From Streptomyces sp. F001 (GTDB taxonomy: Bacteria; Actinomycetota; Actinomycetes; Streptomycetales; Streptomycetaceae), in the NCBI RefSeq assembly GCF_004187715.1, contig NZ_QZWF01000005.1:310001-374000 (forward strand): a DNA stretch of 64,000 nt. Direction: 5' to 3'. The notes beneath the pieces are model-generated. The model searched no databases, was not told the origin of the DNA, and was given only the letters and a program-made list of their open reading frames with translations. Position numbers and translations under genes: made by a program. Each line of letters starts with the position of its first letter. Position 1 is the first letter of the stretch. Below, one piece after another: positions 40,091 through 40,919 of the stretch.

Positions 40091-40753
40091 GAGGTCGGCG
40101 TCCTCGACGATGTCCTTGTTCAGCTGGAACAGCTTCTCCCAGCCGCCCTTGACGTCGTGCTCCGCGGCGATGGTGCTGAGCGTGTCGCCGGTGACGACCT
40201 TGTACTCGCCGTCACCCTTCTCGACCTTCTCACCGGTCGGGGTGGTGACGGTCTTCTGCGCCGGGCGCTCCTGCGAACGGGAGGCCGGCTGCTGCTCGGT
40301 CGAGCGAGTGGTGGTCTCGGTGCTGCTCTGCGAGGAGCCCTCCGAGGAGGAGTCGCTCGCGCCGCCGCCGGTGTACGTGGCGTTCGACAGGCCCGTGCCG
40401 CAGTGCGGCCAGGCGCCCTTGCCCTGACCCGCGAGCACCTTCTCGGCGATCTGGATCTGCTGCGCCTTGGTGGCCTGGTCGGCCGTGGCGGCGTACTGCG
40501 TGCCGCCGTACGCGGCCCAGGTGGAGGCGGAGAACTGCAGACCGCCGTAGTAGCCGTTGCCGGTGTTGATGGACCAGTTGCCGCCCGACTCGCACTGGGC
40601 GACGGCGTCCCACTCGGAGGCGGTGGCGGCGGAGGCGCTGCCGGCCGCCATCAGCGGGGCGGCGACGGCGGCGGCGCCGGTGACGCCGACGACGGCTATG
40701 GCGCGAGCGGCCTTGGACGGACGACGGTGCTTGCCCTTGCTGGAAAACAGCAT
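40058..40753 (-). CDS. rpfA: Resuscitation-promoting factor with LysM domain (RpfA)
   Basis: 231 aa, secreted muralytic enzyme that cleaves peptidoglycan during spore germination. Signal peptide 1-~42 (cleavage after GSASA). Rpf lysozyme-like domain 44-~120 with the catalytic Glu55 in AQCESGGNW and [15 protein letters not shown]; Cys54 and the Cys in PHCG can form a disulfide. A Ser/Thr/Gln-rich linker follows, then a C-terminal LysM ([18 protein letters not shown] to [11 protein letters not shown]). Preceded by a c-di-AMP type riboswitch leader that can pair with the ribosome site GGTGAGGGG. Confidence 0.95.
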
Positions 40754-40770
40754 GGAGAGATCCCCTCACC

Positions 40771-40919
40771 GACGCCTGCGAGGTGAGCTGTCGGGTTCGG
40801 GCCGGTTGAGTTGCCCGGCCACGCCCCTGTGGGGAGGCGTGACTTCACCCCAAGCCGTACCGGCTCAACTGTCCGGTGCGGCGCTTACCTTGGGTCCCCC
40901 GCTCCTGCCTACGGCGCTT
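40771..40919 (-). promoter_or_regulatory. c-di-AMP riboswitch (ydaO/yuaA type) in the rpfA leader
   Basis: Read on the minus strand, the leader contains the conserved ydaO core blocks in order: GCGGGGGACCCA, TTGGGGTGAAGTC, GGGCAACTCAACC, CCGAACCCGACAGCTCACCTCG and AGGCGTC. GCGCC at the 5' end can pair with GGCGU at the 3' end as P1. CTCACC (40787-40782) inside the conserved 3' block can also pair with GGTGAG (40770-40765) of the ribosome-binding region, giving a plausible expression platform. A riboswitch of this class upstream of Streptomyces rpfA is known. Confidence 0.9.

Follow-up and report, generated by a model that had tools for sequence, protein, structure and literature searches.

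The rpfA gene of Streptomyces sp. F001 is preceded by a c-di-AMP riboswitch of an actinobacterial subtype that we call type II (the names type I, type II, Pv and P0 were coined for this analysis), and its ligand-bound aptamer probably masks the Shine-Dalgarno (SD) sequence through a pseudoknot of the last hairpin loop, turning rpfA off. In the mechanism that we propose, binding of c-di-AMP would close P1 and the pseudoknot at the 3' end. In the pseudoknot, the last hairpin of the aptamer would contribute its loop, and the partner would be the stretch immediately 3' of P1, which in this family is the ribosome binding region, so that the folded aptamer itself would mask the SD; without ligand, the 3' end would be loose and the SD open. 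As for the 5' end, P1 and Pv would both have their 5' strands inside P0, a helix that may form a pseudoknot with Pv or gate the folding of the aptamer. We infer both the ligand-dependent change and its translational level, and binding of c-di-AMP by this predicted riboswitch is presumed from what passages of PMC10117811 report for the S. coelicolor homologue.

The riboswitch, its gene and its genome

Computation places the element firmly in its family. A covariance model search of the window (the whole stretch of DNA that was analysed, 64,000 nt) returned an RF00379 match on the minus strand at 40926-40758, with 70.7 bits against a gathering score of 38 and an E value of 2.2e-14, and besides this match no other RNA family came above threshold in the window. 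The Rfam score bears out the class given in the original prediction, a c-di-AMP riboswitch of rpfA, and the element as such is already known, as the rpfA gene of S. coelicolor carries one. The span first claimed, 40751-40919, lies on the riboswitch but misses the 5' end of the aptamer, whose 5' strands are at 40962-40949 with a helix reaching up to 40976. Likewise, the conserved ydaO blocks, said to be all present, were indeed found (core, 3' block and 5' strands), but the 5' strands lie outside that span. The gene and its control signals are the following.

40058-40753, minus strand: rpfA coding sequence, 231 aa, with Transglycosylas and LysM domains
40762-40767, minus strand: SD-like GAGGGG, called from the sequence, 8 nt upstream of the start codon
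41000-41030, minus strand: putative promoter, with a -35-like TTTGAAA and a -10-like TACGGT (41005-41000), conserved in the consensus of 81 rpfA upstream regions

The two domains encoded by the ORF at 40753-40058 are as expected for an Rpf, and the nearest relatives of this rpfA are Streptomyces records. The neighbouring Rpf-like gene (41109-42194) has the same two domains, and between 40700 and 42500 no c-di-AMP riboswitch except that of rpfA was found at E values up to 5, which agrees with the claim that the adjacent rpfC has no such leader. The start site suggested by the putative promoter would imply a 5' UTR of about 245 nt; a simple sigma-70 scan gave no match at this promoter. Upstream of it, within a stretch conserved in the 81-locus rpfA consensus (gTG.G.gAT...TCTCAGA), is GTGTGGGATGAGTCTCAGAGG (41062-41042, minus strand), which we take to resemble an inverted-repeat activator site of the Crp-like kind. 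A short upstream ORF that overlaps the 5' leader, seen by eye, was dropped as a leader feature because small indels in several aligned relatives break its frame.

Genome-wide, there are seven RF00379 matches, each upstream of an ORF with a cell-wall hydrolase domain (7/7): M23 in three cases, NlpC/P60 in two, SLT in one and the Rpf transglycosylase of rpfA in one. The six riboswitches that precede the M23, NlpC/P60 or SLT ORFs are L001, L002, L004, L005, L006 and L007, and at least two of them, L005 and L006, belong to type II and have a P0 helix. One gene in the genome encodes a diadenylate cyclase domain.

The 5' end of the aptamer and the helices Pv and P0

Our comparison comprised 105 Streptomyces rpfA leaders (80 and 24 loci from two retrievals, plus the window) and an actinobacterial set of 206 riboswitch loci, including those of this genome, which are the best-scoring matches among those listed, with weak matches under-represented. 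One of the 206 (L007) has no recognisable 3' block and was left out; the remaining 205 have a readable one. For 49 of the 312 loci that have a 3' block, no 5' stem of 5 bp or longer could be picked out: 4 of the 67 of the TCG/CCG type and 44 of the 138 of the other type (of 205), and one Rpf locus. In the window, the strands discussed in this section are as follows, in 5' to 3' order.

40965-40976, minus strand: 5' strand of P0, CCCGGCTGCCGC, pairing with 40947-40935 according to permutation tests and fold
40959-40963, minus strand: 5' strand of P1, ACGCC, pairing with GGCGT at 40776-40772 and fitting cGCcgAA of the RF00379 consensus
40949-40955, minus strand: 5' strand of Pv, TCCTGCC, pairing with 40909-40903, with several strand pairs across type II representatives
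40935-40947, minus strand: 3' strand of P0, GCGGCCGTTCGGG, partner of 40976-40965
40913-40917, minus strand: second P1-like strand, GCGCC, inside the Pv loop and used as P1 by the Rfam alignment
40903-40909, minus strand: 3' strand of Pv, GGCAGGA, partner of TCCTGCC
40892-40902, minus strand: conserved core strand, GCGGGGGACCC, from the RF00379 alignment
40772-40776, minus strand: 3' strand of P1, GGCGT, from the RF00379 alignment

Judged by its sequence, the aptamer is predicted to begin about 40 nt upstream of the Rfam match. The Rfam consensus opens with the P1 strand, which is followed by a pair of conserved A's and then by a small stem (Pv), and ACGCCGAATCCTGCC at 40963-40949 fits this consensus yet lies outside the Rfam match, its 14-base core being unique in the window. 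CGCCGARTCCTGYC has no exact match in the window other than the conserved 5' strands, CGCCGAATCCTGCC at 40962-40949; if as many as two mismatches are tolerated, it has 7, against 6.1 expected by chance. These strands correspond to the canonical 5' strands of RF00379 (cGCcgAAuccc), found here upstream of the Rfam match, with the core strand at 40902-40892. The P1 5' strand contains CGCC in 105/105 rpfA leaders, preceded by an A in 104 of them. Of 43 type II loci with a readable offset, 32 have an Rfam start downstream of the true P1 strand, and constructs designed on the Rfam span may therefore lack this strand; for type I, 69 of 70 loci have P1 where the model puts it, to within one base.

Pv is a 7-bp helix in the window (40955-40949 with 40909-40903) that closes a 39-nt loop. 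A Pv loop of at least 20 nt was found in 168 of the 169 riboswitches with a TCG or CCG 3' block, 105 of which are Streptomyces rpfA, and in 4 of the 94 with other 3' blocks, counts that are biased towards pairing since the Pv strands were chosen by complementarity. The strand pairs, chosen in the same way, vary together in 45 type II representatives, as in TCCCGCC:GGCGGGA, CTCTGCC:GGCAGAG, CCTCGTC:GACGAGG, CTCCATC:GATGGAG and others. Inside the loop, GCGCC is present in 105/105 Streptomyces rpfA leaders versus 2/64 other type II riboswitches, and this copy (40917-40913) might serve in place of the P1 strand; the rpfA riboswitch has yet another GCGCC at 40884-40880 (minus strand). In nested folds, which cannot represent pseudoknots, TCCTGCCAGCGGC pairs with GCCGTAGGCAGGA (p about 1), which amounts to Pv lengthened by way of the GCGCC copy found in Streptomyces rpfA. 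Another nested pairing, CCGGCTGCCGC with GCAGGCGTCGG (p 0.88), was dropped because its leader strand has a better-supported partner, P0. An exact scan of the phylum for the rpfA-like 5' motif, too strict to gauge the spread of the subtype, found it in 10/296 genomes and 2/198 genera, and a plasmid search with the leader as query gave partial matches in 9/72,556 records.

In type II, the flank directly 5' of P1 pairs with the bases directly 3' of the Pv 5' strand. The resulting helix, P0 (40976-40965 with 40947-40935), covaries and encloses the 5' strands of both P1 and Pv. Covariation was judged by permutation in place of RNAalifold, which gave no consensus (energy 0) for the P0 segment, the register of the stem shifting between families. 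In 62 distinct non-rpfA type II pairs, the mean energy is -18.4 kcal/mol versus -9.7 when partners are permuted, with 90% within the best 5%, and 45 type II representatives give a z of -19.1. The rpfA leaders alone (63 distinct pairs) reach -20.6 versus -17.2 kcal/mol, with 0/300 permutations as good, although only 24% are within the best 5%, the flanks being alike. P0 pairing in type I is nothing beyond permutation (z -0.9 for representatives); the same flank instead pairs further upstream (z -15.7), forming a separate hairpin that ends directly at P1. Unconstrained folds contain a P0 of at least 5 bp in 61/61 other type II and 64/64 distinct rpfA segments versus 14/90 type I. The 3' strand of P0 partly explains the conserved CGGGAA of Streptomyces leaders. 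The helix abutting P1 seems to have switched partner between type I and type II. Expanded Pv loop and P0 together appear to define type II as an actinobacterial subtype. An extended stem named P0 was reportedly discussed in the rpfA riboswitch by St-Onge and Elliot in 2017; if that stem is the same helix, the existence of P0 is already known.

As for the role of P0, the sequence would fit its coexisting with P1 as well as its competing with P1, and P0 and Pv are arranged like an H-type pseudoknot whose first loop would hold the P1 strand. It is possible, though we would sooner doubt it, that P0 acts as an anti-aptamer whose loop, as long as no ligand is bound, would contain the 5' strands of P1 and Pv; ligand-driven formation of P1 and Pv would then break P0. 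This role is compatible with the masking mechanism that we prefer. The recurrence of P0 in the type II folds just described favours it, as does the fact that P0 is transcribed first. Moreover, P0 is more stable than Pv in only 11/63 and 4/105 nested folds and, being usually the less stable of the two, could leave it to the ligand to tip the balance. However, P0 as drawn has no bases in common with P1 or Pv, and its spacing (8-9 nt before Pv in 57/73 and 0-2 nt after it in 68/73, strand overlap being excluded by constraint) would also suit P0 and Pv standing together as an H-type pseudoknot, while the type I hairpin that abuts P1 suggests a structural role.

Complementarity of the last hairpin loop and the ribosome site

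Masking of the SD by the last hairpin loop, the reading that we favour, involves two further elements at the 3' end.

40799-40816, minus strand: last aptamer hairpin, with the loop AACTCAACCG (40812-40803) as proposed anti-SD strand
40765-40771, minus strand: CGGTGAG, 3' strand of the loop-RBS pseudoknot, just after P1 and overlapping the SD

The 28 nt that follow the 3' block were tested for pairing with each of ten segments of the riboswitch, and the segment holding the last hairpin was the only one whose true partners markedly outdid permuted ones (z -5.75 in 62 type II and -4.66 in 88 type I riboswitches). The loop of this hairpin can pair with the purine-rich sequence that immediately follows P1, and both change together. 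Scored against the 18 nt after the 3' block in 141 distinct non-rpfA pairs, the loop gives a z of 12.6, with 0/500 permutations as good and at least 5 contiguous pairs (G-U allowed) in 127/141; a control region 30 nt further down gives a z of 0.5. For representatives below 72% identity (75 of 79 usable), z was 10.5 and none of 2000 permutations did as well; 85% have 5 bp or more where 56% would be expected, and the control z is -0.2. Permutation does not wholly free such figures of shared ancestry. Loops went unrecognised in three loci of the non-rpfA set, two rpfA leaders and 4/79 representatives. Changed partners include AGTCAGG:CCTGACT, TGTCAGG:CCTGACA and GCGGAAG:CTTCCGC. In the crystallised ydaO RNA, whose 108-nt sequence is printed in PMC5393176, the corresponding loop contains CUCCUUCG (59-66), and CGAAGGAG (99-106) immediately follows P1; a passage of the same paper calls the pseudoknot stable and credits it with many base pairs. 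With the same pair in the crystallised RNA, the loop pairing is very likely part of the known bound fold, whose 3' strand in actinobacterial genes would be the ribosome site.

An anti-SD within the aptamer, complementary to the RBS, is thus present at the family level and short in the window, where the pairing amounts to 4 contiguous bp (CUCA:UGAG or ACCG:CGGU), or 7 with a bulged A at -9.7 kcal/mol. Within Streptomyces rpfA, no loop-RBS covariation was found in 31 distinct pairs (score 12.48 versus 12.53 permuted) because the RBS strand hardly varies, and it is therefore from the family that we infer a short pseudoknot in the RNA of the window. Across the 105 rpfA leaders, 75 loops are the same as in the window, 19 have CTCAC, which pairs with GTGAG, 3 others keep CTCA, 6 are without CTCA and 2 could not be read. 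The loop GTTGAG of the insert hairpin (40869-40864, minus strand) is complementary to CTCAAC of the last loop and could compete with the SD; this kissing pair was set aside because, among the 41 of 81 aligned rpfA relatives that were inspected, changes in the partners are not consistently compensated.

Taken together, we tentatively propose, a little short of even belief, that these RNAs form a distinct pseudoknotted actinobacterial subclass. In it, the 5' P1 strand and the expanded-loop Pv would be threaded through the covarying P0 and the 3' pseudoknot would be the SD mask, sensor and expression platform being one fold with no separate platform; in Streptomyces rpfA, the second P1-like strand would provide an alternative register.

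Level of control and relation to known systems

The proposed masking agrees in sign with the published OFF switch of rpfA and with the nlpC result. According to passages of PMC10117811, the S. coelicolor rpfA riboswitch binds c-di-AMP and is an OFF switch acting by premature termination (OFF and termination also in passages of PMC13104608). As the way in which c-di-AMP riboswitches of actinobacteria work in the absence of a canonical terminator, termination has been put forward for rpfA and translation for nlpC, and an aptamer pseudoknot whose strand is the ribosome site offers one testable answer for cell-wall hydrolase genes, seven of which carry the riboswitch in this genome. For S. coelicolor and S. 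lividans, PMC8079986 assumes, in the part available, RBS blocking, citing Haiser 2009 and Block 2010. The riboswitch of C. glutamicum nlpC (cg2402) is described in passages of PMC9960051 as OFF and most likely translational, its authors suggesting that CTCC:GGAG pairing makes a pseudoknot with the RBS.

That transcription ends prematurely at the ligand-bound aptamer or shortly beyond it, by a non-canonical terminator and with SD masking secondary or absent, strikes us as unlikely, although published data speak for it. St-Onge and Elliot 2017 obtained c-di-AMP-dependent terminated transcripts in vitro, as told in passages of PMC9960051, PMC10117811 and PMC13104608, and rpfA transcripts are up five-fold in an S. 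venezuelae disA mutant (PMC10117811, in part). A purely translational switch does not directly predict either result, and the same transcript data in PMC10117811 speak against a ligand-independent transcript level as in an nlpC-type switch; conceivably, lost translation could lower rpfA mRNA. Against termination, a scan of the minus strand in 40600-41200 for an intrinsic terminator with a U tract 3' of the aptamer brought up a single, unconvincing candidate, a hairpin of 5 pairs that lies over the SD and has a weak tail (CATGCTGTTT), in a spacer that varies between species. Moreover, the start codon is 11-33 nt after the 3' block in 245/263 loci (search range 6-45 nt, 18 without a start found), which leaves little room for a terminator; in the rpfA leaders the distance is 12-23 nt, with a median of 20, in 105/105.

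The SD-masking reading that we favour keeps the idea of an anti-SD platform from the original prediction while replacing its partner, which had been sought in the 3' block.

40782-40787, minus strand: CTCACC of the 3' block, first-proposed anti-SD; present, its pairing with GGTGAG unsupported

This hexamer is a member of the conserved 3' block CTNACC and can indeed pair as claimed, 40787-40782 being an exact 6-bp complement of GGTGAG at 40770-40765. An exact complement of the block lies within 28 nt downstream in 105/105 Streptomyces rpfA leaders, and as an isolated duplex CTCACC:GGTGAG (-10.8 kcal/mol) is stronger than the loop pairing of the window; both strands are invariant in these leaders, so that no covariation can be read from them. 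However, such a complement is found in 0/64 other type II and 0/94 type I actinobacterial riboswitches (0/64 and 1/94 with G-U allowed), and in both sets permuting the partners of the block makes the match no worse. Across actinobacteria, any base (A, C, G or T) can stand at the third position of CTNACC and the downstream sequence does not track it, while the predicted probability of the helix is 0.02 in the full leader, 0.07 when folded from 40940 and 0.002 in the Rfam span. CTCACC being in the conserved ligand-bound core, the helix could not coexist with the bound aptamer and ligand would make the SD accessible, an ON switch in which Rpf expression follows the c-di-AMP level, contrary to the OFF switch reported in passages of PMC10117811 and PMC13104608. 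That CTCACC pairs with GGTGAG and controls the SD is thus highly improbable, and we rejected it as the platform on grounds of comparison, fold probability and sign.

In the literature covered, mostly outside subscription papers and in the form of titles, beginnings of abstracts and passages, there is no statement of family-wide loop-RBS covariation or of the type II architecture. As far as the available parts of these papers go, the closest system is the rpfA riboswitch of S. coelicolor and S. venezuelae (St-Onge 2015; St-Onge and Elliot 2017), which shares the gene and the RNA family with ours and is a homologue at the genus level; termination is reported there, whereas we favour SD masking and redraw the 5' end. 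The nlpC riboswitch of C. glutamicum is likewise actinobacterial, precedes a cell-wall hydrolase gene, is OFF and has prompted the idea of an RBS pseudoknot, but in the available passages of PMC9960051 CTCC:GGAG is a suggestion from a single sequence, whereas here the pairing comes from a comparison of many riboswitches and is placed at the known aptamer pseudoknot. In the B. thuringiensis kdp riboswitch, as described in a passage of PMC6488665, a terminator lies well upstream of the gene, in contrast to the pseudoknot strand that overlaps the SD here. With the Firmicutes ydaO/kimA riboswitches (RF00379), judging from passages of PMC5393176, ours has in common the conserved core, P1 and the pseudoknot of the last hairpin loop with bases 3' of P1; type II differs from them by its expanded Pv loop and P0.
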